Of a stretch of 64,000 nt of DNA, positions 4,349 to 24,999 are shown piece by piece. The notes under the pieces are model-generated. The model worked only from the letters and a program-made list of their open reading frames with translations, was not told where the DNA came from and searched no databases. A program made the position numbers and the translations under genes. The stretch comes from Methylophaga thalassica (GTDB taxonomy: Bacteria; Pseudomonadota; Gammaproteobacteria; Nitrosococcales; Methylophagaceae): assembly GCA_011052985.1 (NCBI GenBank), contig DRHY01000178.1, forward strand, positions 1 through 64,000. Reading direction: 5' to 3'. How positions within the stretch are numbered: position 1 is the first letter of the stretch; the number at the start of each line of letters is the position of its first letter.

Positions 4349-5173
4349 GTGCAAAGCCTGTATACGGATATGACGTATAGCTTTTTAGTGAAGCTAATGG
4401 ATGCGTCTTTGATAAGTGATAAAGAACGAATAACTGAATTAGGATTCACACCAGTTCAGGTAAATGTCATATCCAACCTCCCTCATAGTGATTTGTATAA
4501 ACTGTCACGGATTTATAAATTACTCGATATTTCAATTAATGAAATATATTTAACAAAAGCAATCAATCAGGCTAAAGAAAATGTTCGTTGTCGTAGTGAC
4601 ATCGAAAATATGGATATTACACACAAATTACTGAGAAATTTATCCACATTGTCCGCTCACGAAACAGAGAGTAAATCACTCTCAGAACTATTTAATCTAT
4701 CAAACAAAATAATTTCACAACTAGCTTCGATGACAATTCAAGATACGTTAGCGATAGCAAGAACTGGAATTGTATTTTATGAAATCTCAGCTAATGAATT
4801 TAAATTAGCGATGGCTTTAGAATACATACAAGAATCTCGTCGTGAAGAGGAAGCTATTAATCACCTAATCGTTAAAGATGCATCCTGGCCGATGGTGCAT
4901 GCTCTTACTGGAATGAGCAGAGCACTTTTCCAAGAAATGAGAAAATCATTGAATGCTCCAAAAACACTGGGCGGTCCGCCCAGAAGATTAACGGAAGAAG
5001 AGGAGATAATAGCCTGGAATTCGTGGGTTAAGACTGCAAACAAAACTCCTCTAGAACGGTGCATTACAGTAAGCCAAACGTTGAACGATATTGCATTACG
5101 TCATTTATGGCCAACATTATCTGAATGGCTGAAGAACGAATCAGAGTCAGTAAAATCATCGGTAGTTATATAA
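4349..5173 (+). CDS. DUF2857-like element regulator
   Basis: A 274-residue protein that resembles DUF2857 proteins, a family found on PFGI-1-type elements. The pattern (LGF, short helices, a helix-turn-helix-like core, then GGPP and acidic residues) appears once near residues 15-110 and seems to be echoed near 170-265, so the gene may hold two related domains. Some element regulators have FlhC-like folds (SetC in SXT, for instance); a similar role here is inference. The start is the GTG seven bases after GAGGAG; an earlier GTG 11 codons upstream lacks a ribosome site. It sits immediately before the first copy of the repeated transfer-operon element, whose sequence starts at this gene's stop codon. 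Confidence 0.6.
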   Translation: MQSLYTDMTYSFLVKLMDASLISDKERITELGFTPVQVNVISNLPHSDLYKLSRIYKLLDISINEIYLTKAINQAKENVRCRSDIENMDITHKLLRNLSTLSAHETESKSLSELFNLSNKIISQLASMTIQDTLAIARTGIVFYEISANEFKLAMALEYIQESRREEEAINHLIVKDASWPMVHALTGMSRALFQEMRKSLNAPKTLGGPPRRLTEEEEIIAWNSWVKTANKTPLERCITVSQTLNDIALRHLWPTLSEWLKNESESVKSSVVI

Positions 5174-5199
5174 CCAGCATAGAGCAATATCCGGTTATT
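5171..5199 (+). promoter_or_regulatory. Transfer operator copy 1
   Basis: One of three copies of a 29-bp element: TAACC(A/G)GC, a variable centre, then CAATATCCGGTTATT. TAACCGG and CCGGTTA are inverted repeats; this copy has TAACCAG in the left arm. It ends 57 bp before the PilL-like start codon. A TTTAT sequence about ten bases further on could be the -10 box. Confidence 0.7.
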
Positions 5200-5256
5200 G
5201 ATTGCCTTTATTAGCACCTGAAACGAATATGTACGCAAAATTGATGGAGATGCATC

Positions 5257-5766
5257 TTGCGTACAAAACTACTCATTGCAGCACTGCCTGTCATCATGAC
5301 TGGCTGTATAACGCTTCCTACTTTTGAGCAGGAAGCAAAACCAATTACGACAACTGGTTCCCCTGAAGTTATACCTGATATTTTTATTGAGCGTTATGAC
5401 TATGAACCTCCCAAAGAAACACAAGTAAGAGTTGGCCGGTACTCAAGTGCAGCTGCTGTAAACACTAGGCAGCAAGAGAACTTACTGGAAGTTGTTGTTG
5501 ATACAGAAATACCATCTCAAGAACAAACCGTTGGCCAAGCAATAGACTTCTTACTTCTCAGAAGTGGATACACATTAGCTGCACCCGATATCCAGGGAAA
5601 ACATGTAAAACAACTCCTCAATAAGACTTTACCTGAAATACACCGAAAAATAGGGCCTGTAATGCTAAAAGATGCCTTGATGATGTTAGTCGGAAAAGCG
5701 TACTGGATGAAAGTCGATCCTGTACATAGGTTAATAGCATTTGACACAGTTGATGAGTTTAAATAA
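5257..5766 (+). CDS. PilL-like transfer lipoprotein (TIGR03748-like)
   Basis: A 169-residue exported lipoprotein and the first gene of the transfer operon. A short signal peptide ends in the lipobox IMTGC. The mature part contains RVGRYSS and a conserved IDFLLLRSGYTL segment, as in the N-terminal domain of PilL-like proteins of PFGI-1-class elements (TIGR03748). It starts with TTG, placed seven bases after GGAG. Its stop overlaps the next start by one base. The role in the mating apparatus is not established; an outer-membrane or periplasmic position is likely. Confidence 0.7.
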   Translation: MRTKLLIAALPVIMTGCITLPTFEQEAKPITTTGSPEVIPDIFIERYDYEPPKETQVRVGRYSSAAAVNTRQQENLLEVVVDTEIPSQEQTVGQAIDFLLLRSGYTLAAPDIQGKHVKQLLNKTLPEIHRKIGPVMLKDALMMLVGKAYWMKVDPVHRLIAFDTVDEFK

Positions 5767-6632
5767 TGACAGATAAAAGCAAATCTCACGATGTTTTCGA
5801 TGGTGAAATACCGAAAGATATTGGCAAAAAGAAAAGTCCTCCAGTATGGATAAAAATAATATTGCTACTGATATTAGTCAGTGTACTTGGTACAGCGGTG
5901 TACATACTTGAATCAGATAACGAATACGACATTGAGCCAGGAGTAGACTTAAATGAAACAGTTATTTCCGAACTGACAGCTGAAAATCCCATTATTAATG
6001 AAGTAAACACAACTAACAATAATGAGGCAGAGAAAGAGAGTATTCAGGAATCGAACTTAGATATCTTAGAGCTTGAAAATACTCAGAACGAGATTCAAGT
6101 AATCCCATCTAATACCGCCCAACCAAGTTCTAATACAGCAGGCTTTTATGATGAGAAAAGTGAGCTTGATGTGGAGTTAGCTGATTTATCAACTAGACTC
6201 GACACTATAGAGGATAAGGAATCGGATCGAATAGCATTAGTTAAGAGTGGAATGGAGTTACATGCAGAAAGTATTAATAAATTAAATGCATTAGTTGGCT
6301 CACTCAAAGAATTAAAGAGTGAACTTAAAGCATTGAAAAGAGAATCAACAAAGACTAATGGCGTAGCTCAGCCTTCCCATCTCGAAGCTCAAAAAAAACT
6401 ACCTAAAACAGATATACCAAATAAACCAAACGCTATTAGCAAAACTGATCAGCTCAAGCTGTTGGGTATCGATTCATGGGGTGGCGAAGATTATGCTCAA
6501 ATTGAATACAAGAACGAAATCCATCTCCTAAGCACAACCGAGAAGATAGGAAAATGGAAAGTAATGAGTATTGACGACAATAGCGTAATGATAAAAAACG
6601 AAGAAGGAGTGAGCTTTGAACTTAAGATTTAA
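5766..6632 (+). CDS. Membrane-anchored coiled-coil transfer protein
   Basis: A 288-residue protein with one membrane helix near residues 28-48, a long acidic low-complexity and coiled-coil region (about 55-200), and a small C-terminal beta domain (last 60 residues) that recalls PilP-like or periplasmic assembly domains. The topology is N-in with a large periplasmic part. It overlaps both neighbours, so it belongs to the transfer operon. I cannot name the family with confidence. Confidence 0.55.
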   Translation: MTDKSKSHDVFDGEIPKDIGKKKSPPVWIKIILLLILVSVLGTAVYILESDNEYDIEPGVDLNETVISELTAENPIINEVNTTNNNEAEKESIQESNLDILELENTQNEIQVIPSNTAQPSSNTAGFYDEKSELDVELADLSTRLDTIEDKESDRIALVKSGMELHAESINKLNALVGSLKELKSELKALKRESTKTNGVAQPSHLEAQKKLPKTDIPNKPNAISKTDQLKLLGIDSWGGEDYAQIEYKNEIHLLSTTEKIGKWKVMSIDDNSVMIKNEEGVSFELKI

Positions 6633-7392
6633 GAATCATGTACTTTTAGTGCTGATACTAGCAGCAAATACATCGTTAGCTGCGGATAAAATCACATCAA
6701 AAGAAACACAATCCAAAGCCATTGACAGTTCGGAGTACCAAACTGAGCAAAAGCATCTTATGTGGGGTTTATCGGCAGCTGAATACTCACGATACGAAGA
6801 ACTTATGAAGGGGATTAGAGGAAGCATAAGTCCTGAAACAATATCTCCAATAGAAGTACTGGGCATACATGCTCAAAACGATGCTGAACGAAGAAAATAC
6901 GCACGGCTTTGGGCTGACATGATGGAAAAAGATGCTGAACGCGTACTTGCGTTCCAACGTGCTTATGACCAGGCATGGAGAGACAAAGGTGATAAACCGC
7001 TAATTGACATTACACAGCTAAAGACTCAATCACCTTCGGTTATACCGACAACAACAACACAATCATCAGGATTGCCTGCAAATAATTTGATTATAGCTAC
7101 TAAATTAGATGGGTGTGCTGCCTGCGATAAGAAGATACAGCAACTTTTAACATCGATGCTAGTAGATAAAACGCTACATCTTGATGTTTATTTTAGTGAC
7201 TCAAGTGATAAACCTAACAGCGTTATACGCCAATGGGCAATAAGCAATCGTGTAGATGCAGAGATGCTTAAAAGCAGACGTTTAACATTAAATCATGGGC
7301 AATCACTCATAAATCAATATCAGCTTGATGAAAAACAACTACCTGCAACATTCAAAGTCGATAACAATGGAGGGGTAAAAAGGGTAGAATAA
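6616..7392 (+). CDS. Element protein, TIGR03759 (PFL_4693) family
   Basis: An exported 258-residue protein with a signal peptide ending near SLAADK. The block WGLSAAEYSRYEELMKG followed by SPIEVLGIHA, AERRKYA and AFQRAYDQAW is the hallmark of the TIGR03759 family of integrative elements. The C-terminal half holds a CAAC pair in a thioredoxin-like setting, so it may act on disulfides in the periplasm. The start is TTG, seven bases after GGAG, overlapping the previous gene by 17 bp. Confidence 0.75.
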   Translation: MNLRFKNHVLLVLILAANTSLAADKITSKETQSKAIDSSEYQTEQKHLMWGLSAAEYSRYEELMKGIRGSISPETISPIEVLGIHAQNDAERRKYARLWADMMEKDAERVLAFQRAYDQAWRDKGDKPLIDITQLKTQSPSVIPTTTTQSSGLPANNLIIATKLDGCAACDKKIQQLLTSMLVDKTLHLDVYFSDSSDKPNSVIRQWAISNRVDAEMLKSRRLTLNHGQSLINQYQLDEKQLPATFKVDNNGGVKRVE

Positions 7393-7395
7393 TAT

Positions 7396-7890
7396 TTGAC
7401 TAATATTAAATTACCCAATATGACTTCCAATACGACGCCTATTGACTTGAATGCTTATAAGAGATTTCTTGATGGAGAAGTCGAGAAACATGCCAGTGAC
7501 ACCAAAATCAATAATGGCACAAGTATTGTTAATGCTGTCAACGTCGGAAGTTACAGCTTTAGTTGGGGAAAAATAGTCGAGCAACTTTCTGGAGAGTTCT
7601 TTATCTGGAAGTTTCAAATATCTACCCTTGCCAAAAAAACCCATGGCGAGAGAATCTATTTCCAAGAGCAAATATTTAACTATTTGCAGTCAAAACATCC
7701 AGAACATTCATCTGAGCACGCTATCTTGGTGGCTGGTTTGCATGACAAATGTATATTCTTGGGTATTAAGGAAGATGCATTCATCATCGCATCACCAATG
7801 CAACATGAGTATAAAAACCGCATATGGGTTCACATGCATATACTCAACAAAGATATTCCTGAAATTCTTAGCAATATCAATAATACTTAG
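7396..7890 (+). CDS. Hypothetical protein within transfer operon
   Basis: A 164-residue soluble protein with no signal peptide, not one I recognise from PFGI-1-type clusters. It sits between the TIGR03759 gene and the transglycosylase, and overlaps the latter by 86 bp. The TTG start is uncertain; an ATG eight codons later is possible. The lack of an export signal sets it apart from its exported neighbours. Confidence 0.5.
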   Translation: MTNIKLPNMTSNTTPIDLNAYKRFLDGEVEKHASDTKINNGTSIVNAVNVGSYSFSWGKIVEQLSGEFFIWKFQISTLAKKTHGERIYFQEQIFNYLQSKHPEHSSEHAILVAGLHDKCIFLGIKEDAFIIASPMQHEYKNRIWVHMHILNKDIPEILSNINNT

Positions 7891-8395
7891 CTGTAACCTA
7901 TATTCACCAGCATACGCTAATACGTATTCAAAAAAGACTATCCCAGCCCTCTATGTAAAAGTAGCTAAGCAGGAAGGTGTTCCAGCAAATCTACTTTATG
8001 CAATCTCACGAGCAGAAAGCACTAATCCAAAAATAAAAAAGGTATGGCCATGGACTATCAATGTACGTGGTAAAGGATATTACTTTCCAACACGAAAGAA
8101 AGCTTACGCAGCAATTATGCTGTTATTAGCCAATGACATCACTTTAGTTGATATAGGTCTAATGCAAACCAATTGGTATTGGCACAAAGACAAACTGAAA
8201 GATCCATGGAAGGCATTATCACCTGAATACAATATTCAAACTGGAGCAAAAATCTTACGTGAGTGCTACGAACGTAAACAAGACTGGTTTTATTGTGCTG
8301 GTGAGTATCATACAAAGAGTAATACACCAGAAAGAGCAGCACGTGCAAAACGTTACCAGGAGAATGTGCTTAGCTATATAAGGGCAACAAAATGA
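7805..8395 (+). CDS. Lytic transglycosylase (SLT domain) of the transfer system
   Basis: About 196 residues: a signal peptide (IFLKFLAIS to SPAYA) and then an SLT-type fold with the catalytic Glu in AISRAESTNP and the DIGLMQTNWYW motif in place of the usual GLMQI. Such enzymes open peptidoglycan to let the conjugation channel pass. A fold unit of this type follows TIGR03759 in related elements. The start is the nearest ATG before the signal peptide, which lies inside the preceding gene in another frame. Confidence 0.75.
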   Translation: MSIKTAYGFTCIYSTKIFLKFLAISIILSCNLYSPAYANTYSKKTIPALYVKVAKQEGVPANLLYAISRAESTNPKIKKVWPWTINVRGKGYYFPTRKKAYAAIMLLLANDITLVDIGLMQTNWYWHKDKLKDPWKALSPEYNIQTGAKILRECYERKQDWFYCAGEYHTKSNTPERAARAKRYQENVLSYIRATK

Positions 8396-8874
8396 GTAGG
8401 ATAATCTCTTTCTCTGTCCTGCTAATCCTAAGCACATTAGTCCACGCAGAGCCTAAAGTGATATTTGATTCAGGCAGGACTACAAATGCAGACAGATATT
8501 TATCTCCAGAACAAAAACCTTCTTTCCCAAAACGGAAACCAAACATCACGAGCCTAATCACCCCAAGAACACCGGAAATGTCAGTTGGTAAAGTGGAAAG
8601 GCGTAATGTTGAACTCCCTTATCTGCCAAGCCCATTGTTTCTTGTTGGAACAGACAAGATATCCATTAACTGGTTATCTCAACACAGACAAGCACTCATT
8701 AAGGCCGGAGCTGTGGGGCTGATTGTCAATTCGAAGTCTGCTTCAGATATTCAACATGTAATTCACACAGCAAAAGGACTTCAGATAAGCCCCGCCTCCG
8801 GGAGTGATCTTGCAAAGCAGCTTAACCTTCATCACTACCCAATTTTAATCACACGAACGCAGATTGCCCAATGA
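8392..8874 (+). CDS. Element protein, PFL_4695 (TIGR03765) family
   Basis: A 160-residue exported protein (signal peptide to HAEP). It shows the family blocks PLFLVGTDKIS, AGAVGLIV and ISPASGSDLAKQL, then HHYPILIT near the C-terminus. TIGR03765 proteins sit directly before traD in PFGI-1 and SXT-type elements, as here, with a 4-bp overlap. It is thought to help the coupling protein or channel; its biochemistry is unknown. Confidence 0.8.
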   Translation: MSRIISFSVLLILSTLVHAEPKVIFDSGRTTNADRYLSPEQKPSFPKRKPNITSLITPRTPEMSVGKVERRNVELPYLPSPLFLVGTDKISINWLSQHRQALIKAGAVGLIVNSKSASDIQHVIHTAKGLQISPASGSDLAKQLNLHHYPILITRTQIAQ

Positions 8875-10928
8875 AACAGAAACACACCTTGGAAGTACTT
8901 CTTAGACCAAAGGTTGAAATTTGGTCTGCAGGTATATCTGCTACGGGTGCCGTACTTTCATATGTCGCACCTTGGTCTATTATGATGACCCCATCCATTG
9001 CTTATGGGGTGGGGGGTATCCTCACATATAATGCATTTCGTAATTTCAGAGACTTTGTTCGACTCTATAAGTATCAAAAAGGGCTTCGCCGGCAAACTCT
9101 ATTTAAGATGGCACCCAATGACATCCCAGTTAGTAAAAAATATTTGTTTTATGGACTTGGCTTTAGGTGGGGACAAAAACATGCTCAGCGATTAAAAGAC
9201 ACAAGAGAGCCAGCTGCAAGCAAATATATCAACCCTGGGCCACTTTACAGACTCGCTAGAAGAAAAGAGCGTGAATGGGAATCACAACCCTACCTATCTA
9301 AAATCGCAGAACTTCTTAACAGTGAATCAAAATTTAATCCTGTTCGGCCATTACCTCCAATAGGTGGCGAACCACAGATTCATGGTGTCGGGGGGGAGGA
9401 AGAGCCAGTAGTTTCACTTCTCTCGGAAAGAAATGGTCATACACTAGTTCTTGGTACCACTCGTGTAGGTAAAACACGTGCAGCTGAAGTACTGATTACG
9501 CAAGATATAAGACGTGGTGACATCACAATTGTCTTCGATCCAAAGGGTGATGCAGAGTTGATGCGAAGAGTTATTGCTGAATGCAAAGCGTCTGGTCGAG
9601 AAGATGATTTAGTTGTGTTTCATCTTGGCTTTCCAGACATCTCAGCTAGATACAACGGCATAGGACACTTTAGCCGAGTAACTGAGGTTGCTACCAGAAC
9701 AGCAAACCAACTTGACAGTGGTGGTAACTCGAACGTTTTCCGTGAATTTTTCTGGCGATTCACCAATATTATTGCTCAAGCATTGGTAGCTCTAGGACGA
9801 CGGCCAGATTATGCACAACTAGCACAGCACATTCAAAGCATCGATGACCTACTAATAGATTATTACGAGGTTTGGTTAAACAATGAGGCTGATCCTGACT
9901 GGCCAAGACACGTAGATGAAATAGCATCAAATTTGAACGATAAGATGCTTCCTATGAGTCTGCGTGGGAAAAACAAAAGAGCAAACGCCATGATCAAATA
10001 TGCTCAAGATAGAAAAATGTTTGATGCCGTAGCTATGGGACTACGTTCTACATTTGAATATGACAAAACATATTTTGACAAGATTGTAGCAAGTGGTCTG
10101 CCATTACTTGAGAAACTTATATCAGGACGTATTGCTGAGCTTATATCTCCTGCATATAACGACGCAGAGGATAATCGACCAGTATTTAGTTGGGGGCAGG
10201 TTATACGGCAAAAGAAAGTCGTGTATATCGGACTGGATGCATTACAAGATATGGCTATTGCTGGCACCGTTGGTAACACAATGTTTGCTGACTTAGTTTC
10301 TACTGCTGGTGAGATATATAAACATGGAACTGAACTTGGTTACCACAACCAGGACACATCATCAGGAAGTAAAACCCCCATAAACATTCATGCTGATGAA
10401 GTTAATGAATTAATGGGAGATGAGTTTCTTCCTATGCTTAACAAAGGTGGTGGTGCCGGTCTACAAATCACCGCATACACGCAAACCATGTCAGACGTTA
10501 TTGTGAAGCTTGGTGATCAAGCTAAAGCAGGTCAAGCACTTGGTAATTTTGGCACGGTAATCATATTCCGAGTGAAAGAGTTAGCTACAGCTGAGCTATT
10601 CACAGAACAGCTCCCTATGGTGGAGGTTGCAGCAGCAACAGAAGTGACAGGATCTGCAGATTCTGTAGATATAGATAGCGAGGTCGACTTTACATCAAGC
10701 GCTCAAGATCGAATAACGTTCACTGAAGCACCACTACTATCTCCGGCCACCATAATGGCTCTTCCAAAAGGTCAGGCATTCATTCTTACCGCAGGCGGCC
10801 AACTATGGAAAATCCGAGTGCCATTAGCTGACTCTAAAGATGATCTCTATATGACATCAAATTTTAATGAAATGGCTGATGATATGGCTACATCATATCG
10901 TACTGGCGAGACATGGTGGATCGAGTAA
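8871..10928 (+). CDS. traD: Type IV coupling protein TraD (SXT/TOL class)
   Basis: A 685-residue VirD4-type ATPase that would deliver the relaxase-DNA complex to the secretion channel at the inner membrane. Two hydrophobic stretches near residues 20-55 anchor it. Walker A GTTRVGKTR is near residue 196 and Walker B IHADEVNEL near 506, with VFDPKGDAEL after Walker A as is usual. Its length is close to that of TraD of the SXT/TOL subfamily (TIGR03743). It overlaps the genes on both sides, so it is part of the same transcript. Confidence 0.9.
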   Translation: MKQKHTLEVLLRPKVEIWSAGISATGAVLSYVAPWSIMMTPSIAYGVGGILTYNAFRNFRDFVRLYKYQKGLRRQTLFKMAPNDIPVSKKYLFYGLGFRWGQKHAQRLKDTREPAASKYINPGPLYRLARRKEREWESQPYLSKIAELLNSESKFNPVRPLPPIGGEPQIHGVGGEEEPVVSLLSERNGHTLVLGTTRVGKTRAAEVLITQDIRRGDITIVFDPKGDAELMRRVIAECKASGREDDLVVFHLGFPDISARYNGIGHFSRVTEVATRTANQLDSGGNSNVFREFFWRFTNIIAQALVALGRRPDYAQLAQHIQSIDDLLIDYYEVWLNNEADPDWPRHVDEIASNLNDKMLPMSLRGKNKRANAMIKYAQDRKMFDAVAMGLRSTFEYDKTYFDKIVASGLPLLEKLISGRIAELISPAYNDAEDNRPVFSWGQVIRQKKVVYIGLDALQDMAIAGTVGNTMFADLVSTAGEIYKHGTELGYHNQDTSSGSKTPINIHADEVNELMGDEFLPMLNKGGGAGLQITAYTQTMSDVIVKLGDQAKAGQALGNFGTVIIFRVKELATAELFTEQLPMVEVAAATEVTGSADSVDIDSEVDFTSSAQDRITFTEAPLLSPATIMALPKGQAFILTAGGQLWKIRVPLADSKDDLYMTSNFNEMADDMATSYRTGETWWIE

Positions 10929-11623
10929 TGGCACAAGAAAATAGCCCCCGAGCACAAAAAAGCCTGATGGGTAGATGGCTATCACGAATTATAACCATGG
11001 CTATATGGCTCTTACTCGCTTTACTTATGTCTATTATCACCGAATGGATTGGAATGAACACTAAATGGAGTGATGAAGGTGTTGAGCATAGTCGGATGAT
11101 GGTTAAAACGGAACTGGGCTATTTAAACGAAGACTTTCAGAAAAGTTTGATTGTACAGAGACCAGTCCAATATGCTGAAAATGTTGCATCAGCAATGCAC
11201 CACTTTATGTATGAGAAGACAGGAATTATGGCTCTCTTATCAAATGTATTTAGAGATAGTAAAACAGAAAGCATAGCGCGTTTGATTGCCGAGCATGTTT
11301 TAGCTGCTGTTTACGTGACCCAAGTATTCGCCATTAGGCTTGCTATTCTGACACTTGCTTTACCAGCATTTTTAATATTTGCCATTGTTGCTGCTACGGA
11401 AGGATTGGTTCAACGAGACATCAGAAAATGGTCAGTTGGGCGGGAACATGCTGGCTTATACCACCACGCAAAACGTTGGATACCTGTCACATTCATCGCA
11501 CCATGGGTTGTCTACTTAGCCTTTCCAGTATCTATACACCCAAATGCTGTAATCCTACCATTTGCCTCATTATTCGGCCTTGGTATCTTTATGGTTACCT
11601 ATCTATTTAAGAAACATATCTGA
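10928..11623 (+). CDS. Integral membrane transfer protein (TIGR03747, PFL_4697 family)
   Basis: A membrane protein of about 231 residues with four predicted transmembrane helices, two of them in the C-terminal third. It follows traD directly, as TIGR03747 proteins do in related elements. I favour the ATG overlapping the traD stop codon; an ATG five codons earlier is also open. It is the last gene before the second operator copy, so it probably closes the first transfer transcript. Confidence 0.75.
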   Translation: MAQENSPRAQKSLMGRWLSRIITMAIWLLLALLMSIITEWIGMNTKWSDEGVEHSRMMVKTELGYLNEDFQKSLIVQRPVQYAENVASAMHHFMYEKTGIMALLSNVFRDSKTESIARLIAEHVLAAVYVTQVFAIRLAILTLALPAFLIFAIVAATEGLVQRDIRKWSVGREHAGLYHHAKRWIPVTFIAPWVVYLAFPVSIHPNAVILPFASLFGLGIFMVTYLFKKHI

Positions 11624-11652
11624 TAACCGGCTCAGGCCAATATCCGGTTATT
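11624..11652 (+). promoter_or_regulatory. Transfer operator copy 2
   Basis: The second copy of the 29-bp element, with perfect TAACCGG / CCGGTTA arms. It starts at the base after the stop codon of the membrane protein gene and ends 60 bp before the RAQPRD gene. CATTTAAG about ten bases downstream could serve as the -10 region. Confidence 0.75.
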
Positions 11653-11712
11653 CATTGTCTCATTTAAGGGGCTTGGGCAGACTTCACTCACACAAAGTTA
11701 ATGTAGTGAGAA

Positions 11713-12012
11713 ATGAACATAATGCTCAAGCCCCTTTTACTTATTTTCACGATTTCATTATCAACAATAGCTAGTGCTAGCAACTTTGCAGAACGTGAAA
11801 GTCTAGCCAAGCTTATTCATGAGATCGATGGACTAAGCTCACTTGTTGATGAAGCCCAGGGACGAGCTAATCCCGATAGCCGTATTCGCTTCCAATACAA
11901 CCTACTTCGTAAAGATTTATTGATGATGAAGCTTGGTATTCAGGAGCATCTCGATGGACCAGCTATGGAGCCCAGAAACTATGCGCCACTATCAGGCGAC
12001 TATCGACGTTAA
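11713..12012 (+). CDS. RAQPRD-family element protein
   Basis: A 99-residue exported protein (signal peptide ending at IASAS). The motif here reads EAQGRANPDSRIRF, the position of the RAQPRD signature that names the family (TIGR01690), followed by FQYNLLRKDL. Proteins of this family are small periplasmic parts of the mating apparatus. It is the first gene after the second operator copy and heads the main pilus and core-complex operon. Confidence 0.8.
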   Translation: MNIMLKPLLLIFTISLSTIASASNFAERESLAKLIHEIDGLSSLVDEAQGRANPDSRIRFQYNLLRKDLLMMKLGIQEHLDGPAMEPRNYAPLSGDYRR

Positions 12013-12015
12013 GCC

Positions 12016-12258
12016 ATGAATGTTGATTCTAAACAATCACAAAGCTTCTTAAACGCTACAGGTGTATCCATGGATAACATGGCATTAGTTATAGCTAGTC
12101 TTATTGTAGTTGCATATTTTCTGTGGAGCGCTTGGGTAACACTATCCTATTACGAACAGTGGGCATCGAAAAAAAATAATATCAGTTTGTATGACGTTCT
12201 TTCGAGTGCAGTTCGCTCAGTCACTTTACTTTCAATCATCTTATATATCGTTTCATAA
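12016..12258 (+). CDS. Small membrane transfer protein (TIGR03758 family)
   Basis: An 80-residue protein with two membrane helices (about 22-42 and 64-80), just after the RAQPRD gene. Size, topology and place match TIGR03758 proteins (PFL_4701 family). It may be a pilin-like or pilin-associated component. Confidence 0.7.
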   Translation: MNVDSKQSQSFLNATGVSMDNMALVIASLIVVAYFLWSAWVTLSYYEQWASKKNNISLYDVLSSAVRSVTLLSIILYIVS

Positions 12259-12270
12259 AAAGGACTACTA

Positions 12271-12606
12271 ATGAAAAAGGTACTCACCTCCGCATCAGCT
12301 CTATACCTTTCGTTTTGCCAAAATGCATACGCAGCACTCCCAACAGCTGTTCCACCATCTAATGGGGCAGCAAATGGAAACTGGCTAGAACTTCTAAAAG
12401 GATACATAAAAGATGCTTCTATATTACTAGGGCTAACACTCTCTGTGGTCGGTTTTATTTGGCTTGGATGGATTGCTTTAGCTGATATTAACCAAGCTCG
12501 TGCAGGTAGAAAAGAGTGGGGTGAGGTAGGTGTCACAGTCATCGCTGGTGCTGGCGTATTTCTATTCGTTTCTTATCTACTTGCTCAAGCGGCAGGTGTC
12601 TTCTAA
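12271..12606 (+). CDS. Pilin-like membrane protein (TIGR03745 family)
   Basis: A 111-residue protein with a cleavable signal peptide (to NAYAALP) and two hydrophobic helices (about 45-68 and 88-110). That is the layout of VirB2/TraA-type pilins. It fits TIGR03745 (PFL_4702) by size and position. A Shine-Dalgarno AAAAGGA precedes the ATG. It could be the main conjugative pilin; this is inference from topology. Confidence 0.75.
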   Translation: MKKVLTSASALYLSFCQNAYAALPTAVPPSNGAANGNWLELLKGYIKDASILLGLTLSVVGFIWLGWIALADINQARAGRKEWGEVGVTVIAGAGVFLFVSYLLAQAAGVF

Positions 12607-12977
12607 TGAGTGATTCAGCAGAAATCCTTGCTGACCGGCTTAACAATGAGCCACCAATATTCCGTGGGCTATCAAATTCTGAACTAGGCATGGTACTAAA
12701 GTTTGGTGCAGTTTTCTGGGTTCCGGTGTGCCTTTTCATTGCCACCCTTTTTGGTAAAACAATGATGGGGATGGGAGCTGCAATGTTAATGCTGTTACTT
12801 ACAATCCTCGTTAGTGGGTCTTTGTTTCAAAGAATAAAACGTGGAAGACCAGATTACTACTATCAACACTACTTAATGCTTCGAGATGTTTTTCTTCGAG
12901 TAAAAATAAACACTAAGAATGACCGTGTGATTCGATATTCAGGTACATGGGGAGTTGGACGTAAAGATGGCGAGTAA
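12606..12977 (+). CDS. TraL/VirB3-like inner-membrane protein (TIGR03750 family)
   Basis: A 123-residue protein with two adjacent membrane helices (about 35-75) and the motif RLNNEPPIFRGLSNSE near the start, typical of TIGR03750. Its place after the pilin matches TraL/VirB3-like components that link pilin to the core. Its start codon overlaps the pilin stop. Confidence 0.8.
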   Translation: MSDSAEILADRLNNEPPIFRGLSNSELGMVLKFGAVFWVPVCLFIATLFGKTMMGMGAAMLMLLLTILVSGSLFQRIKRGRPDYYYQHYLMLRDVFLRVKINTKNDRVIRYSGTWGVGRKDGE

Positions 12978-16055: not shown

Positions 16056-18778
16056 TGCTCAGCAAACTACTAACAAAAAGCTCATCTTACTCACACTCTC
16101 TTTTAAAAAAAGAAGATGTAAGAAAGGATTATAGAGAACTACCATCATTCACAAACTTGCTCCCTTGGAGGGAATATGACAGCGAAAACCAGGTATTTCT
16201 CTTAGAAGACGGTAAAGGAGTCGGAGCACTTTTTGAGATTGAACCAGTTGGTGTAGAAGCTAAGACTGAAGATTATATAGTTGAGATTCAGGAAAAACTT
16301 CAAGCAACAATCACAGAAACAATACCCGAAGAAAATGTAGCACCATGGACATTGCAATTCTTTGTTCAAGATGAGCTAAGTGTTAGGACGTTGACCGACC
16401 AAATCCGAGAATATGCTCATCCAAGAGCTGTAAATACCCAATATACAAAACACTTTTTAAATGTCATGGATGAACATTTACGTCAGGTTGGACAACCCAA
16501 TGGACTTTTTTTTGATGATGTTGTAACTGGTGGGAGATGGCAAGGAAAAAGACGTAAGGTGCGCATGTGTCTTTATCGTTACTTCCCAGAAAATTACAAG
16601 TCAGACTACGATAGAGATATTCGTGAGTTAGGGCGAATCCGGAAAAGACTAGTCACTCAGTTTACTGGCATTGGCATGAAAGCAACTGTCGCAGGAGGTA
16701 AAGAACTGTATGAATGGATGCTACGTTGGTTAAACCCAAAGCCAGTTATAACGAAAGGTGACAGTGAAGAATTACTAAAAGTCGCACCATATCCAGGTGA
16801 TGACGATTTGGCATATGGCTATGATTTAGCCGAACAATTATCTCTTTCCAGACCAAGCTCAGATGCTGAAAAAGGCATCTGGTACTTTGACGGGATGCCA
16901 CACACAGCAGTTAGTGTACAAGCACTCCGTCGTGTACCTGAAAATGGATTATTCACGGCCGAGAGAAACTCTGGAGAACATACATTTGCTATGTTCGACA
17001 GAATGCCTGAAGGCACTGTTATGTCAATGAGTATCGAAATCAAACCAAGAGACCAAGTTAATAACCATCTCGGTCGAATTATGCGATCAGCAGTAGGTGA
17101 CAATGCTGAAGCAGAGATAGCTCATATAGAAGCAAAAACAGCTCAACATGAGGTAGCAAAAAATAACACCCTTTATCCTGTCTATATCAGCTTCCTGACA
17201 CGCGCCGAGGATCTCGAAAAACTCGATGACGCTGTATCAGTTATTGAAGCTTTAATACTGAGTAACGGATTACTACCAATTACTGAAAATCAGGACTTGT
17301 TAAAGCAGGATATGTACATCCGAAGCCTGCCTATGAAGTTCGATAGTTTAATGATGCAGAAAAAGCAACGTCGCTCCAGACTAGTGTTCTCGCGTCAAAT
17401 TGCTTCTATGCTCCCTATCTATGGACGCTCTAAGGGAACGAATCACCCAGGACTCATGTATTTCAATCGCGGTGGTGAGCCACTTCTAGTTGATCCATTC
17501 AACAACCAAGACCGAAAAAAGAATGCTCATGCTTTGATTATAGGTCCTACTGGTGCTGGTAAGTCAGCGTCTCTTGTTGATGCAGTGATGAAGATCACTG
17601 CAGTTCATCGACCAAGAATCTTTATAGTTGAAGCCGGCGATTCATTTGGGCTGCTCGGTGAGTATATGGCCAAACAAGGGCTAACAGTAAATCAAATGTC
17701 TGTTACTCCCAGTGCTGATATATCGCTCCCTCCGTTTGCCAACGCCATGAAACTTCTAGAGCTGTCAGAAGATGAAGTCGTCACTGAAGATGATGATGAA
17801 TCTGAACTTGATGACGAAGATGAAGACCGTGATTACCTAGGTGAAATGGAGTTAGCAGCTCGTGTGATGATTACTGGTGGAGAAAAAAAAGAAGATGACA
17901 TGCTTCATCGAGCTGACAGGCTAGTTATTAGGAAAGCAATCTATCGAGCAGCACAAAATGCAAAAAACAATGGTCGTAGCCAAGTTTTGACTGAGGATGT
18001 CGTCAAGGCTATGCGACACACAGAGGACTTAGATCACAATAGAACTGCACGAGCTATTGAGATGGCTGATGCAATGGAGCTTTATTGCACCGGTGTTGAA
18101 GGAAAACTATTCAATCGTCCCGGTACAGAGTGGCCTGATGTAGACATCACGATCTTTGATATGGGCATTCTAGCCAGAGAAGGATACGAGGATAAATTAA
18201 CTGTTGCATATATGAGCTTGATGAATCACGTCCACGCACTTGTTGAGCGTGAACAGCATGAAGGTAGACCAACTCTCATGCTAACAGACGAAGGCCATAT
18301 CATCACTAAAAACGCCACTCTTGCACCGTACATAATCAAGATTGTAAAAATGTGGAGAAAACTAGGCGCTTGGTTTTGGATAGCTACACAAAACTTAGAA
18401 GATTTCCCAGATGATAGCCGTCGAATGTTAGCTATGCTGGAATGGTGGATTTGCCTTGTAATGCCTCGTGATGAGGTAAATCAAATTACACGATTTAAAG
18501 ACCTCACGAAAGAACAAGAATCAAAACTTTTAGCGGCAAGGAAGTCTCCGGCTCAATATACAGAAGGCGTGATTCTTACAGATAACCTCGATCCACTCTT
18601 TAGAGCAATACCTCCAGCAATATCATTAGCACTTGCCATGACTGAACAACATGAAAAAGCAGAGCGTCGTGAAATTATGGAACAAATGGGATGTGATCGT
18701 GTTGGTGCTGCAGAAATAGTTGCTGAAAGAATTAAACAAGCACGTCGTAATCACAGCCTGGAGGCCGGTAATGCATAA
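16055..18778 (+). CDS. traC: Conjugative transfer ATPase TraC/VirB4-like (PFL_4706 family)
   Basis: A 907-residue VirB4/TraC-class ATPase that powers pilus and channel assembly. Walker A IIGPTGAGKS lies near residue 495 and Walker B PTLMLTDEGH near 740. The acidic insertion rich in Asp/Glu at about 565-590 is unusual and could be a flexible loop. Its length is in the range of TIGR03744 proteins (PFL_4706). It is encoded in overlap with both neighbours. Confidence 0.9.
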   Translation: MLSKLLTKSSSYSHSLLKKEDVRKDYRELPSFTNLLPWREYDSENQVFLLEDGKGVGALFEIEPVGVEAKTEDYIVEIQEKLQATITETIPEENVAPWTLQFFVQDELSVRTLTDQIREYAHPRAVNTQYTKHFLNVMDEHLRQVGQPNGLFFDDVVTGGRWQGKRRKVRMCLYRYFPENYKSDYDRDIRELGRIRKRLVTQFTGIGMKATVAGGKELYEWMLRWLNPKPVITKGDSEELLKVAPYPGDDDLAYGYDLAEQLSLSRPSSDAEKGIWYFDGMPHTAVSVQALRRVPENGLFTAERNSGEHTFAMFDRMPEGTVMSMSIEIKPRDQVNNHLGRIMRSAVGDNAEAEIAHIEAKTAQHEVAKNNTLYPVYISFLTRAEDLEKLDDAVSVIEALILSNGLLPITENQDLLKQDMYIRSLPMKFDSLMMQKKQRRSRLVFSRQIASMLPIYGRSKGTNHPGLMYFNRGGEPLLVDPFNNQDRKKNAHALIIGPTGAGKSASLVDAVMKITAVHRPRIFIVEAGDSFGLLGEYMAKQGLTVNQMSVTPSADISLPPFANAMKLLELSEDEVVTEDDDESELDDEDEDRDYLGEMELAARVMITGGEKKEDDMLHRADRLVIRKAIYRAAQNAKNNGRSQVLTEDVVKAMRHTEDLDHNRTARAIEMADAMELYCTGVEGKLFNRPGTEWPDVDITIFDMGILAREGYEDKLTVAYMSLMNHVHALVEREQHEGRPTLMLTDEGHIITKNATLAPYIIKIVKMWRKLGAWFWIATQNLEDFPDDSRRMLAMLEWWICLVMPRDEVNQITRFKDLTKEQESKLLAARKSPAQYTEGVILTDNLDPLFRAIPPAISLALAMTEQHEKAERREIMEQMGCDRVGAAEIVAERIKQARRNHSLEAGNA

Positions 18779-19190
18779 GTTCACATTCATTTTATTATTA
18801 CTAACTTCCAGTTTTTCATATGCTGATCAACTTATTGTAGAAGCCTTTTACGATAAAGATACTCGACTAATTAATGTTCATCTAGCTGAAACAGTATCTT
18901 TGGTTACAACGTATGACCTGAGTGCGCCTGATAGATTCAAAGAAAAGCTCAGTGAAGGACTTTCTTCAGAACCGACTATTGCTCAGAAGCAGGCAAAAAA
19001 ACGAATTCTGGCACTCGGAAATGAAATTCAATCCCAATTGATTTCAGCCTATGAGGGTTCTCTAAAAGCCATGCAGTATGAAATAACTAAATTACCTGCT
19101 GTCGTATTTAACAATGGCCAACAGGTGATCTATGGTGAAAATGATGTTAACAAGGCAATAAAAATCTACTACGAAAAGGTAGGTAAATAA
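18771..19190 (+). CDS. Periplasmic transfer protein (TIGR03757, PFL_4709 family)
   Basis: A 139-residue exported protein (signal peptide to FSYADQ). The C-terminal block LPAVVFNNGQQVIYGENDV is the TIGR03757 signature. The fold appears TrbC/thioredoxin-like. I chose the ATG preceded by GGAGG, which lies inside the last codons of traC; longer in-frame starts would bury the signal peptide. Confidence 0.8.
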   Translation: MHKFTFILLLLTSSFSYADQLIVEAFYDKDTRLINVHLAETVSLVTTYDLSAPDRFKEKLSEGLSSEPTIAQKQAKKRILALGNEIQSQLISAYEGSLKAMQYEITKLPAVVFNNGQQVIYGENDVNKAIKIYYEKVGK

Positions 19191-20176
19191 TGAATAGGGC
19201 CTTAGTAATTACTTTATCTGCTTTACTTCCATTTACAGTAAACGCTGACTCAGAGACCATCAATACCGCTGACATTATAGCTTCTGCAGCGAGCGCTTCA
19301 TGCATAGACTACAAATTGGTTGGCGTATGTTTCTGGCTTAGATGCACTGGGAATAGCTGTGATGTTGAAACATCACCAAAAATTGCCCATCACAACCCAG
19401 ATATTGTTGTTAGTGCTCATAATGGAATTGGAAGTAATCCATGGACTGAGGCAAATAGTATAGTTGGCAGTGTGTCTCAATCTGCCGTGGGCTCACTAAT
19501 TAATAAAGCCGCTTCTATAGATGCTGGAAGTAATCAAACAAGCAAAGGAACAGATCTAAACACGCTGAAATTCAAGTCTAGTGATGCTATTGGACACCCA
19601 GTTTCCTCAATCTCATTTAGCTATAGCTGTCCTTCACAAGCCACTGCGTTCAATCCTTATTTTGTATCTGGAACAGATTCTATTGCCTGGCGTCTTGGCA
19701 TCCCTGAGACGGCTTATCCAGATGCTCTAATTCCAGGTAGAAGGGAGATTGGTAACTTTCCCACCAACACGTGGGGCTCAGTCTATCCTCGAAGCGGTTT
19801 TATCAGTCAATCATCTGATACAAAAGCGGCAGCTGTAATAGCTCAACGTGTTGGCGACATTGTTACAAGGAATGGACAACCACACGTATATCAGTCTTTA
19901 TCAGGCACACCAAGCTATAACGGACGTATATGGCCTCCTGGAGCTTTAAAAGAAAACTCTAATAAAAATGGAAAGTGGCAAATGCTCGCTCCAAAAATAT
20001 CAAATAGCTGCACTGTATTTGGTGACAACGACACGACATCTCTAGCTGGTTGGGATGGTAATGGTAATAACGCATCAACCGGCAATTATGCATGGACGTT
20101 ATGGCGTCCTTATCAATGCTGTGAAAGAAAAGGTCAACTTTTTCTATACAGCGTCAATTTCATGTCTTATCCATAA
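19190..20176 (+). CDS. TraU-like transfer protein (TIGR03756, PFL_4710 family)
   Basis: A 328-residue exported protein (signal peptide to VNADSE). The cysteine-rich start of the mature part (SASCIDYKLVGVCFWLRC) and the later CCERKGQ segment are typical of TraU-like proteins, in which disulfides are important. It fits TIGR03756. TraU family members are needed for DNA transfer rather than pilus assembly in F-like systems. Its ATG overlaps the stop of the upstream gene. Confidence 0.8.
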   Translation: MNRALVITLSALLPFTVNADSETINTADIIASAASASCIDYKLVGVCFWLRCTGNSCDVETSPKIAHHNPDIVVSAHNGIGSNPWTEANSIVGSVSQSAVGSLINKAASIDAGSNQTSKGTDLNTLKFKSSDAIGHPVSSISFSYSCPSQATAFNPYFVSGTDSIAWRLGIPETAYPDALIPGRREIGNFPTNTWGSVYPRSGFISQSSDTKAAAVIAQRVGDIVTRNGQPHVYQSLSGTPSYNGRIWPPGALKENSNKNGKWQMLAPKISNSCTVFGDNDTTSLAGWDGNGNNASTGNYAWTLWRPYQCCERKGQLFLYSVNFMSYP

Positions 20177-20186
20177 GGACCGCATT

Positions 20187-21542
20187 GTGTTATTTAAACG
20201 TTTAGCATTAGTTACTTCGCTTGTAATCTCTTCAAATGCAACTGCTACAGGTTTACAAGTTCCTGATTCAAATGCGGGCTGGTACTACGGTGTAGGCGGT
20301 CAACGCCCAATCTCTCAGCCTGCATCCCCTATAACAAACAGTATAGTTCTGGGCGGGTCTCTCGACTGGGGTAGTGGCTTCAATTGCAGCGCTTTCGATC
20401 CAACTCTTGGCGTTGCAAACACTTTAAACAAAGTGAAAAGCGGTGTCGATGCGATTCAACAGCAGGTTACTGAAGCCGCTACAGGTGCGATAGCTTCACT
20501 CCCACTACTTATGCTCCAGAGAGCTAATCCTGGCTTATATGAGCTTCTAATGAATAGTATGGCTAGGGCACAACAAGGTGTCAGAGTTTCAACACAAAGC
20601 TGCGAACAAATGCAGCAGACAATATCTCAAGGTGGCAATCCAATAGAGGGTTGGATTGATATTTCTCGTACACATGACTGGAGTGATCAAATGGGTGGAG
20701 GAGGATACAGAAATGCGCCTGTTGACGTCGTAGAAGCACAGCAGACAGTTGACAAAAATAACGGTGAAAATGGGGTGACGTGGCTGGGGGGTACAAAAGC
20801 TGGTGGCCGTGGTCAACGCCCTATAAATATACCTTCAGACATTGTAAAAGCTGGTTATAACCAATCATTGAACCGGAGTGCTGATTCAAATCTTGCCGCA
20901 CCACAAAACGGCAGTAGAATCTCCGAGCTTTGGGAAACGCCTGAAGACCTAATTCGCTTTAGTAGCTCATTATTAGGTGAAGAAAAAGTTCGTACATATT
21001 CAGACCGACCTACGGAAACTATTCCGGCAAGGGGAATGGCATTTGAGATCAACAAAGAAGTCGAGAAATTAACTCCAAAATATAACAACCTTATTAGTGG
21101 TAGTTCAGACTTAAGTAACAGAAACCTAATGGATATCTCAACTCCAAATGTCGTTATAACATCGAACACAATACAGGCTCTCAGAAAGCTAAACCCATCT
21201 GAACAAAATATTCTGAAAGACCGTTTGATACTAGAAGTAGCAACAGCACGAGTCATTGAAAAATCACTAATGTTGCTAAGACTTCTTTCCTCTGGTTCTC
21301 AAGAACCTAACGTCTCTCAAAATGGACCAGCTCAGGAAGCGGTACAAAAATACACTGCTCGTCTACAACAATCGGTTGACGACACATTATTCGAGCATGA
21401 AATGAGTAAACGTCTCGCTTCTTCAACAGCCCAAACAATCAGAGAAGTAGAGATTGTAAAACGTCGAGTTGGAAACTCTACACTAACTTCTGGACAAAAA
21501 TTTAACTCTCCAGATAAATCAATCAGTAGTGAGGATGATTGA
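20187..21542 (+). CDS. TraH-like transfer protein (TIGR03755, PFL_4711 family)
   Basis: A 451-residue exported protein. The start is the GTG preceded by AAGGA, which gives a good signal peptide (to TATGLQ); the longer open frame upstream is shadow sequence of the TraU-like gene. Blocks LGGSLDWGSGFNCSAFDP and CEQMQQTISQGGNP match TIGR03755. The second half is predicted mostly helical. In F-like terms it would correspond to TraH, acting in pilus assembly at the outer membrane; this equivalence is inference. Confidence 0.78.
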   Translation: MLFKRLALVTSLVISSNATATGLQVPDSNAGWYYGVGGQRPISQPASPITNSIVLGGSLDWGSGFNCSAFDPTLGVANTLNKVKSGVDAIQQQVTEAATGAIASLPLLMLQRANPGLYELLMNSMARAQQGVRVSTQSCEQMQQTISQGGNPIEGWIDISRTHDWSDQMGGGGYRNAPVDVVEAQQTVDKNNGENGVTWLGGTKAGGRGQRPINIPSDIVKAGYNQSLNRSADSNLAAPQNGSRISELWETPEDLIRFSSSLLGEEKVRTYSDRPTETIPARGMAFEINKEVEKLTPKYNNLISGSSDLSNRNLMDISTPNVVITSNTIQALRKLNPSEQNILKDRLILEVATARVIEKSLMLLRLLSSGSQEPNVSQNGPAQEAVQKYTARLQQSVDDTLFEHEMSKRLASSTAQTIREVEIVKRRVGNSTLTSGQKFNSPDKSISSEDD

Positions 21543-21904
21543 TGGGAAAGCAAGCAAAAACCACTATCTACCTAAAAAAAGCACTATTTAGTCTAGGCGT
21601 AATTTCAATTGGAATTATTGTTTTACTGGTTATTCTTTATGCAGCAGTTAAAAGTGACCATATCGTTACACAAATACTAAATTACGTTAATGACATTTCA
21701 TCGATTGCTCGTTATCTGAGGTGGCTTGTAGTTGGAGCTATCATAATTTTTTGGGATGAAATAGTTGACTATGTATCAATTGCCAAAGGACTTGAAGAAG
21801 AACAAAAACAAAGAGCCAAATCAATGAGGTGGCATGTTTTATTTGCTGTACTTGCTTTCGAAATACTAGTTGTCGAAGCCCTTCCAGCCAAATTTATGAG
21901 TTAA
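21542..21904 (+). CDS. Small multi-pass membrane protein in transfer operon
   Basis: A 120-residue protein with three predicted helices (about 15-38, 58-75, 96-112). It lies between the TraH-like and TraG-like genes, where related elements often carry a small membrane protein. I chose the ATG overlapping the upstream TGA over the TTG one codon before. No family name is certain. Confidence 0.6.
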   Translation: MGKQAKTTIYLKKALFSLGVISIGIIVLLVILYAAVKSDHIVTQILNYVNDISSIARYLRWLVVGAIIIFWDEIVDYVSIAKGLEEEQKQRAKSMRWHVLFAVLAFEILVVEALPAKFMS

Positions 21905-21910
21905 CAACTT

Positions 21911-23452
21911 ATGTCAACCGGCAGTTTTATTGAAATGTTCATGACCACCTTTGGGTGGCATTTGTATGAAATTATATGGGGAGTAATATCTAGCACTGGG
22001 CTAGCCTACCTGCCTTTCTTTGCAGTAATAATCGATAACGTAATTAAACCTATCGAAAGTCAGGAGGCAAAAGCTGCTGCAGCAACTTCGTTAAGAAGAC
22101 TTGAAATCGACATAGTACGACTAATAATTATGATGATGCTCGCTGTATCACCTTATATCACCATTCAGTATGGTTCCATAGCCTACACTAAGGCATGTCA
22201 AGCTGATACTGGCACTGCTGGTGATACATATAAAGCTGGCAATAGCGGTACTAGGTTTGACGAAATATTTAAACCTAACCTACTCAACAATCAGGAAGCA
22301 AAAGTTCCCCCCTGGTTTTATATAGTAATGTCAGTCACAGGCGGAATTAATGATGCAGTAATTTCTCGACTTCCTTGTGAAATGAATATGCGTCAAGCGG
22401 AATATGAATTGTCGACAATTGAAATATCAGATCCCCACCTGAAAAGGCAAACACAACGCTTTGTGACAGAATGTTATCAACCAGCAGTAGCTGATTTCTA
22501 TAACAACCATAGACAGCTACCTGACGAGATGGATGTAACAGATATTCTCTGGCCAGGGTCAAGATATTTTAATTCTAATTTTTATCAAAATGAATTCGCA
22601 AAAAGTCCTGTACCTGGATTCTCATTTGATGCAAGTCGTCAAAGTGATATGGCATATGCTTCATCTGATCCAAATATTGCTATTCCACAGAATGGATATC
22701 CAAGCTGTAATGAATGGTGGAATGACTCTTCGACAGGCATAAGAACGGGTTTAGTTAAAGAGTTCCCCCCATCCTTCTTTGATACATACTTTTCATCAGC
22801 ATTTAGCTCCTCTGAGGAAGTTGAAAACCTTGCTATACGTGAAGTACTTAAGAATGAAGGTAAGTCTATATATGACGGACTGAATATTGCAGGCGAAACC
22901 GATATCGAATGGGGGTTAAGTAGAGAGACTGCTGGAGACCTTTTAGGTGCTATTGCTGGTACTGGCGGAGCTTTTATTGCTGAAATGTTGGCTAAGCCAG
23001 CGCTATTCATGGTTAAGCAAATGGCACCTTATATTCAAGCAACGCTCCTAATGGCTACCTACTTCTTATTGCCTTGGGTATTATTAGTAGGTAACTACTC
23101 ATGGAGTACAATCAAAACAGCAACGGTTACTATTTTTGCTGTCAAATTCTGGACTACCATATGGGCTGTGACTGACCTACTAGATGCCAATCTACAAAAA
23201 GTTATTACAGGAGCTAAAGATTCAAACTGGTTGATGGAAAGACTAAGTCATGAGAACTGGATGCTTGAATGCATTATTGTTTTAATAATCCTATCACTAT
23301 ATATGGCTCTTCCGTACTACTTTCTAACTATTCTTGGCTGGAGTGGAGAACGTGGAGCAAGTGCACCAACTGGTGCTGCTACTTCTGCAAATAGTGAAGG
23401 TAAAGCTGCAGGTAATCAAGGTGCAGATATGGCTAAGAATGCTGTTAATTAA
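21911..23452 (+). CDS. TraG N-terminal-like mating-pair stabilisation protein
   Basis: A 513-residue polytopic membrane protein. Hydrophobic segments lie near residues 15-40, 75-95, 370-410 and 450-480, flanking a large soluble loop (about 95-350) that holds several Cys. The arrangement matches TraG_N proteins, which span the inner membrane and help mating-pair stabilisation and entry exclusion. It is the last rightward gene of the mating-pair operon. The short Ala/Gly-rich tail shows that it lacks the long C-terminal domain of F TraG. Confidence 0.8.
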   Translation: MSTGSFIEMFMTTFGWHLYEIIWGVISSTGLAYLPFFAVIIDNVIKPIESQEAKAAAATSLRRLEIDIVRLIIMMMLAVSPYITIQYGSIAYTKACQADTGTAGDTYKAGNSGTRFDEIFKPNLLNNQEAKVPPWFYIVMSVTGGINDAVISRLPCEMNMRQAEYELSTIEISDPHLKRQTQRFVTECYQPAVADFYNNHRQLPDEMDVTDILWPGSRYFNSNFYQNEFAKSPVPGFSFDASRQSDMAYASSDPNIAIPQNGYPSCNEWWNDSSTGIRTGLVKEFPPSFFDTYFSSAFSSSEEVENLAIREVLKNEGKSIYDGLNIAGETDIEWGLSRETAGDLLGAIAGTGGAFIAEMLAKPALFMVKQMAPYIQATLLMATYFLLPWVLLVGNYSWSTIKTATVTIFAVKFWTTIWAVTDLLDANLQKVITGAKDSNWLMERLSHENWMLECIIVLIILSLYMALPYYFLTILGWSGERGASAPTGAATSANSEGKAAGNQGADMAKNAVN

Positions 23453-23465
23453 GTAAATATGAAAA

Positions 23466-24472: not shown

Positions 24473-24898
24473 ATGCAAGATATCATTCCCACATTAGCCA
24501 CTACTGCTTTTCTTGTTTTTTGTTACGACCAAAAAGTCATTGCTTCACTGCAGCGCCAAGGAAAATACGATCCTGATACACATCAAACGGTACTATCAAG
24601 GTTGTTTTTATCACCAGTAAAATTGTTGTTATCACTTCTTTTACTACGCTTAAATCCAAATAGTGAGGAGAGCACAACTTGGAAGCCAGAAGGTGATTTG
24701 AGTTTGTTTCAATATGACACAACAGTATGCCTGGACAGTAAAGGAATGAAGACGCGTTTATCCTATTTTTTTGATGATAACCAGCACGCTTGGTACATGA
24801 TAGAAAATATTAACAATAAAGGCGTTACGGTTAAGGCACCCCGGTTTGAACCTGCTACAGTATCGTTCGATGCTAAAAAGCTTCAGTACGTGTTGTAG
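24473..24898 (+). CDS. Hypothetical protein under structured leader 1
   Basis: A 141-residue protein with an amphipathic or membrane-associated helix near residues 42-60 and a beta-rich C-terminal half. The family is unknown to me. It has a strong ribosome site (GAGGAGA) that the leader can mask. A terminator follows directly, so it is a single-gene unit controlled by its leader. Confidence 0.6.
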   Translation: MQDIIPTLATTAFLVFCYDQKVIASLQRQGKYDPDTHQTVLSRLFLSPVKLLLSLLLLRLNPNSEESTTWKPEGDLSLFQYDTTVCLDSKGMKTRLSYFFDDNQHAWYMIENINNKGVTVKAPRFEPATVSFDAKKLQYVL

Positions 24899-24906
24899 AC
24901 ATGCCA

Positions 24907-24934
24907 GCCCCATTCAGAAATGAGTGGGGCTTTT
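24907..24934 (+). terminator. Rho-independent terminator
   Basis: GCCCCATTCA pairs with TGAGTGGGGC around a GAAA-type loop and is followed by TTTT. It ends the single-gene unit at 24473 and separates it from the relaxase promoter region. Confidence 0.75.
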
Positions 24935-24970
24935 CCTTTGATGATACCTTTATCCCTTATTCAAGCTATC

Positions 24971-24999
24971 TAACCGGCATTGACCAATATCCGGTTATT
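24971..24999 (+). promoter_or_regulatory. Transfer operator copy 3
   Basis: The third copy of the 29-bp element, with perfect TAACCGG / CCGGTTA arms and the shared CAATATCCGGTTATT half. It ends 58 bp before the relaxase-like start. ATTTATTG about ten bases downstream could be the -10 box. Its presence ties the relaxase gene to the same control as the mating-pair operons. Confidence 0.75.

Follow-up and report, generated by a model that had tools for sequence, protein, structure and literature searches.

A 29-bp promoter-linked site on Methylophaga plasmids is probably the operator of a DUF2857-type activator of conjugative transfer

We analyzed a 64,000-bp stretch of Methylophaga thalassica DNA (positions 1 to 64,000 of contig DRHY01000178.1, hereafter the window), in which three conjugative transfer units are each preceded by a copy of a 29-bp element. 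Our analysis indicates that this element is probably the binding site of a plasmid-encoded activator, most likely the product of the DUF2857 gene that ends at the first copy, and that site and core promoter are rigidly coupled as a single unit. That the binder activates, which protein it is, and that it acts without a ParB-type BisD partner are what we infer from sequence and structure prediction. Because the site and its fixed-distance promoter precede every known transfer operon of this marine Methylophaga plasmid family, one regulator probably switches on the whole conjugation programme.

In the mechanism that we propose, the activator would bind the 29-bp site directly upstream of a weak sigma-70 -35 element and bring in RNA polymerase as a class II activator, in the manner of SetCD, AcaCD and FlhDC. 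This would jointly switch on the coupling protein/TIGR03759 operon, the type IV secretion system (T4SS) operon, the relaxase, a DUF1173 unit, a pilus-type operon and several small genes.

A bipartite site at a fixed distance from predicted core promoters

The pattern TAACCRGC-N6-CAATATCCGGTTATT has three exact matches in the window, all on the forward strand, against 0 expected in dinucleotide-preserving shuffles. Copy 1 (TAACCAGCATAGAGCAATATCCGGTTATT, 5171..5199) precedes the TIGR03759/TraD operon and overlaps the stop codon of the DUF2857 gene, copy 2 (TAACCGGCTCAGGCCAATATCCGGTTATT, 11624..11652) precedes the RAQPRD/T4SS operon, and copy 3 (TAACCGGCATTGACCAATATCCGGTTATT, 24971..24999) precedes the relaxase gene. 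The original prediction had placed its three copies at exactly these starts (5171, 11624 and 24971), and had rightly described their middle part as variable: between a left half TAACC(G/A)GC and a right near-palindrome CAATATCCGGTTATT, six central bp differ from copy to copy. Its arms TAACCGG/CCGGTTA, 13-15 bp apart, need adjustment, as the left arm of copy 1 reads TAACCAG and the gap is 14 bp in all three copies. Every copy retains the one asymmetric base pair of the right half (AATATCC/GGTTATT), consistent with a directional site.

The promoter alignment comprised 39 distinct sites, and sigma-70 scoring was performed on 11 non-orthologous promoters with 2000 shuffled sets. Outside the 29-mer, the invariant bases are a T at +3 and a T at +31 after the site end. 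The best sigma-70 fit was obtained at offset 3 with a 17-bp spacer, where the mean score of 5.5 was reached by 0 of the 2000 shuffled sets (maximum -0.07). In these predicted promoters, T+3 is the first base of the -35 hexamer and T+31 the last base of the -10 hexamer, separated by the 17-bp spacer. A TTTATT stretch 8-12 bp past the site had been considered as the -10 element and was dropped once the alignment revealed that the invariant T lies at +31. The predicted forward-strand core promoters of the window are TTGCCT (5202-5207) and GAATAT (5225-5230) behind copy 1 (5202..5230), TTGTCT (11655-11660) and CAGACT (11678-11683) behind copy 2 (11655..11683), and TACACA (25002-25007) and TAAATT (25025-25030) behind copy 3 (25002..25030), each with 17 bp between the hexamers.

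It had also been claimed that a constant distance to the start codon fixes the promoter geometry. Within the window the 57-60 bp hold (57 bp to TTG 5257, 60 bp to ATG 11713 and 58 bp to ATG 25058, from the 3' end of each site), but over the whole regulon this distance spans 38-73 bp, so the narrow range reflects coincidence among these three genes. What actually stays constant is the core promoter, that is, a -35/-10 pair at a set distance from the site. With the predicted transcription start placed by convention 7 bp past the -10 element, the site extends from about -66 to -38, with the centre of the right near-palindrome at about -43 and the left half at about -62. Relative to these predicted promoters, a site upstream of the -35 element at a fixed distance is the layout of a class II activator, as for SetCD and AcaCD.

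The conservation profile repeats this arrangement. When this plasmid is compared with its most diverged relative, that of M. pinxianii, identity is 0.92 in the left half, 0.44 in the middle and 0.98 in the right half of the site; in the same comparison of window and M. pinxianii promoters it is 0.92 for the -35 element, 0.65 for the spacer, 0.92 for the -10 element and 0.54/0.68 for the flanks. This footprint refutes the idea that the similarity merely reflects recent shared ancestry of duplicated promoter regions, which we regard as very improbable. The paralogous genes MAED/MAEE do have more of their promoters in common, as such an origin would predict, but non-orthologous promoters share only the site and the -35/-10 letters while flanks and 6-bp middle differ, and plasmids with 54% identity in their flanks have an identical site.

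The same geometry bears on whether the site could instead be a repressor operator that silences the transfer genes. Conjugation genes are often repressed, and the halves of the site are palindrome-like. Repressor sites, on the other hand, more usually overlap the core promoter. Here the site lies wholly upstream of the -35 element, at a constant distance and next to weak core promoters, which is the usual place of a class II activator (PMC4344509) and makes repression improbable.

The DUF2857 protein as candidate activator

The proposed activator is encoded at 4349..5173 on the forward strand; its putative GTG start at 4349 is based on a conserved Shine-Dalgarno sequence and on the start annotated in M. 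thalassica. The protein matches Pfam PF11198 (DUF2857, the BisC family) with 82.2 bits against a cut-off of 36.8 (E 4.5e-23), and consists of tandem FlhD-like halves followed by a C-terminal part. A profile of DUF2857 searched against the PDB matched FlhD (E 1.4e-4), and the window protein matches canonical DUF2857 N-halves twice, through residues 13-96 (E 9e-10) and 97-190 (E 8e-9), so that the FlhD-like half is duplicated; aligning the two internal halves with each other by hhalign, from Methylophaga sequences alone, gave no significant result (E 0.17). The predicted structure is confident (pLDDT 83 for the whole protein and 89 for the second half), and the nine best Foldseek matches of the FlhD-like domain model were all FlhD chains (query TM-score 0.43-0.55). 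Outside Methylophaga, genome G218 encodes a further DUF2857 protein, in which FlhD-like halves are apparently arranged in tandem (L084:1312-2307).

Several sites occur only in genomes with a DUF2857 gene of the window type, which adjoins site 1 in all of them, and sites are absent from another Methylophaga, whose DUF2857 gene is different. The original proposal that a DUF2857-like protein binds the site is therefore plausible on the strength of gene position, family precedent and FlhD homology; co-occurrence by itself is no proof, since all of these elements are linked on a single plasmid.

Several observations weigh against the proposed mechanism. Plasmid linkage alone explains the co-occurrence of site and gene. 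The Foldseek E-values for FlhD are weak (about 1-3, for so small a domain), a whole-chain Foldseek search with the DUF2857 model found nothing, and no FlhC match was found for the C-terminal part. No ParB_N domain (PF02195) was found on the complete plasmids NZ_CP143310 and NZ_CP095734, and BisC of ICEclc needs BisD, which has a ParB domain; either the duplicated FlhD-like half replaces BisD, or another protein is involved. Finally, one site of the M. pinxianii plasmid heads no open reading frame (ORF) of at least 60 amino acids within 130 bp. As to ParB proteins in the remaining plasmids, that of M. aminisulfidivorans carries one at 42500, far from its DUF2857 gene.

The strongest competitor is an activator site for a different regulator of plasmid or host, with DUF2857 acting only upstream or elsewhere, which we consider unlikely. 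DUF2857 bears the public name 'pathogenicity island replication protein', the linkage is non-specific in that other small core genes lie on the plasmid, such as that of a MarR-like 123-aa protein, and DUF2857 is only 47% identical in M. pinxianii while the site is letter-identical. Yet many residues of the C-terminal part (GGPPRRL) are invariant, only some copies of the MarR-like gene are themselves targets, and the BisC precedent, the FlhD homology and a DUF2857 gene that abuts site 1 in all plasmids favor DUF2857 as the activator.

Upstream of the DUF2857 gene itself we found no 29-bp site, and direct autoactivation through the site, as at PalpA of ICEclc, is therefore unlikely. The region does contain TGAGA-N6-TCACA (4204..4219, forward strand), which we read as CRP-like and which is conserved in six of six plasmids ~70 bp before a putative start. 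Crp-type proteins are present in the host, and one of them is a possible trigger of the DUF2857 gene.

Transfer units headed by the sites

Behind copy 1, operon 1 (5257..11623, forward strand) encodes a lipoprotein-like protein, TIGR03759, an SLT transglycosylase, DUF2859, TraD and TIGR03747. Operon 2, behind copy 2 (11713..23452, forward strand), runs from RAQPRD to TraG-N through the T4SS genes and includes the VirB4-like TraC (TraC_PFL_4706 ATPase, 16055-18778, forward strand), and copy 3 heads the gene of a relaxase of the MobH/TraI PFGI-1 class (25058..26278, forward strand). NCBIfam matches thus cover the PFGI-1 type conjugation set of RAQPRD, TraC_PFL_4706, TraD and MobH relaxase, with the relaxase score falling below the curated cut-off.

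As had been predicted, all three transfer units are headed by a site; the set was incomplete, since each plasmid has about 6-9 sites. Further site-headed units are the DUF1173 unit, a type IV pilus-type operon with a CFI-box-CTERM gene in first position and GspE/PulE and prepilin-like genes inside, and small genes for a 227-aa protein of unknown kind and the MarR-like protein (123 aa). In the pilus-type operon, the conserved ATG of the CFI-box-CTERM gene falls on the predicted transcription start, 38 bp past the site (L004:5549-5700), suggesting that this mRNA is leaderless.

The element is most likely a conjugative plasmid

High-coverage homologues of the DUF2857 protein and the relaxase are encoded on the complete circular plasmids of M. 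thalassica (NZ_CP143310, 320 kb) and M. pinxianii (NZ_CP095734, 221 kb), and the M. aminisulfidivorans contig NZ_AFIG01000002.1 (169,875 bp; L064-L072) is circular, its RAQPRD operon running from the end into the start. Based on these homologues, the window, from a contig whose own ends are not closed, is most likely part of a conjugative Methylophaga plasmid. An integrative and conjugative element (ICE) was considered and rejected, as chromosomal integration was not found and the homologues are circular plasmids; the transfer genes are of ICE (PFGI-1) type although carried by a plasmid. MOB-suite types both complete plasmid records as non-mobilizable, apparently a miss.

The DUF2857 gene is flanked by parA and an iteron-like region. 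This region (window 3557-4020), which lies between the divergent parA/119-aa gene and the DUF2857 gene, is AT-rich, contains seven GATAGCTATC palindromes and 45-bp repeats, and is probably the partition or replication site of the plasmid. The presence of this separate GATAGCTATC repeat region next to parA raises the question of whether the 29-bp sites are themselves iterons, partition or oriT-type DNA sites rather than promoter elements. They are instead dispersed single copies that point at genes, with conserved -35/-10 elements at a fixed distance, and we give such a role almost no credence.

Distribution of the sites

A motif search of the kind suggested with the original prediction, covering the whole element and host genome (2.86 Mb), returned eight exact copies of the 15-mer and 0 with one mismatch. 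All eight are on plasmid-like contigs (four on this contig, the fourth at 72667, past the window; two on C196; two on C300), sit before genes and point at them, and the M. thalassica and M. pinxianii plasmids carry homologues of the C196 and C300 genes. In a scan of 84,980 named genomes, the exact site pattern was limited to Methylophaga, and a scan of viral contigs found no site. In total, the 39 distinct sites come from six related plasmids and two chromosomal places, with seven in M. thalassica and, in M. pinxianii, eight exact sites plus one relaxase site with two tail mismatches. On the two complete plasmids, sites are all-or-none, with 0-2 mismatches and none with 3-5, and are thus cleanly separated from background. 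The sites do define one regulon, as proposed: since copies are confined to the plasmids and the two chromosomal places, there is no multitude of copies unrelated to transfer genes.

In M. pinxianii, a molybdopterin/moaA cargo is inserted between the gene of a 141-aa protein and the relaxase gene (L074:13504-21900; 184632-193020 of the plasmid). The relaxase has a site of its own, with small changes (tail TTAAA), and a second, intact site adjoins the 141-aa gene. A look-alike of the right half, GAATATCCGGTAATA, upstream of RAQPRD in a genome of a distant genus (G384, L050), is not claimed as a relative because it has no second exact copy and background matches are many.

One of the chromosomal copies belongs to a Methylophaga genome without such a plasmid (G006). 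It is an exact 29-bp site with TTCTCT (-35) and TAGCCT (-10) at the correct places, 134 bp before the gene of a 1759-aa protein with a tyrosine-recombinase domain (L196:1281-6723; chromosome 734281-739723), whose neighbours are JetD-like, ThiF and type I restriction genes of a defence island. By our arithmetic, the 15-mer alone would occur by chance about 0.3 times in so many genomes, but not with the left half too. As a tentative lead from a single example, this island may have wired its own recombinase to the plasmid transfer switch, a reading that we hold as possible but doubtful. If true, entry of the plasmid and its activator would cause the island to excise, and it could ride along, as SGI1 and mobilizable genomic islands (MGIs) do with AcaCD/SetCD, responding here through a single-protein FlhD-FlhD-C regulator. 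Genome G022 has a remnant of the promoter of the 227-aa gene beside a transposase.

Significance and comparison with known systems

These results provide a predicted, letter-perfect operator/promoter map for a putatively DUF2857-controlled transfer system, in which the strict geometry would allow class II activation to be checked with a single reporter. The plasmids may offer a simpler regulator, encoded by one gene, with a duplicated FlhD-like half and without a ParB partner, and the site can be used to predict the transfer membership of hypothetical genes and plasmid-responsive chromosomal islands.

The closest known system is BisDC of ICEclc in Pseudomonas (PMC7423338, PMC9286271), which has a DUF2857 regulator, a related T4SS gene set and a common motif upstream of T4SS and traI promoters. 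In ICEclc, a 27-bp motif is common to eight of nine bimodal BisDC promoters, including those of the T4SS region and traI; this is a MEME motif, and its authors state that the BisDC binding sites remain to be confirmed (PMC9286271). Unlike ICEclc, the system described here resides on a plasmid. The complete plasmids encode no ParB-type BisD, the DUF2857 protein contains an additional FlhD-like half, and no 29-bp site precedes the regulator gene, which makes a direct loop through this site unlikely. BisC has been likened to FlhC (PMC7423338), whereas here the DUF2857 N-half resembles FlhD. The RAQPRD promoters of ICEclc-like elements, on which the comparison was made, carry other letters (AAACC..TGAATTGATTTTCCGT), obtained from a position-weight scan; a de novo search for shared 24-mer motifs gave mostly noise.

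SetCD of SXT/R391 ICEs (PMC4344509) and AcaCD of IncC plasmids (PMC4207636) are FlhDC-like master activators with boxes near or directly upstream of the -35 element of transfer operons: SetCD boxes lie directly upstream of it (PMC4344509), and the promoter profile of AcaCD is that of a class 2 activator (PMC4207636). Their boxes also occur in islands that hijack the element. In contrast to the SetC/SetD or AcaC/AcaD pairs, the candidate here is a DUF2857 protein; compared with SetCD, the site is a bipartite 29-bp element rather than a 19-bp box, and the -35 element keeps some consensus. The flagellar master activator FlhDC shares with it the FlhD-like N-half, by profile and fold, and differs in operator and targets and in the FlhC component, to which no match was found in the C-terminal part of DUF2857. 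The kind of system is thus known; we found no earlier description of the site, its strict promoter unit, the plasmid host or the altered regulator.

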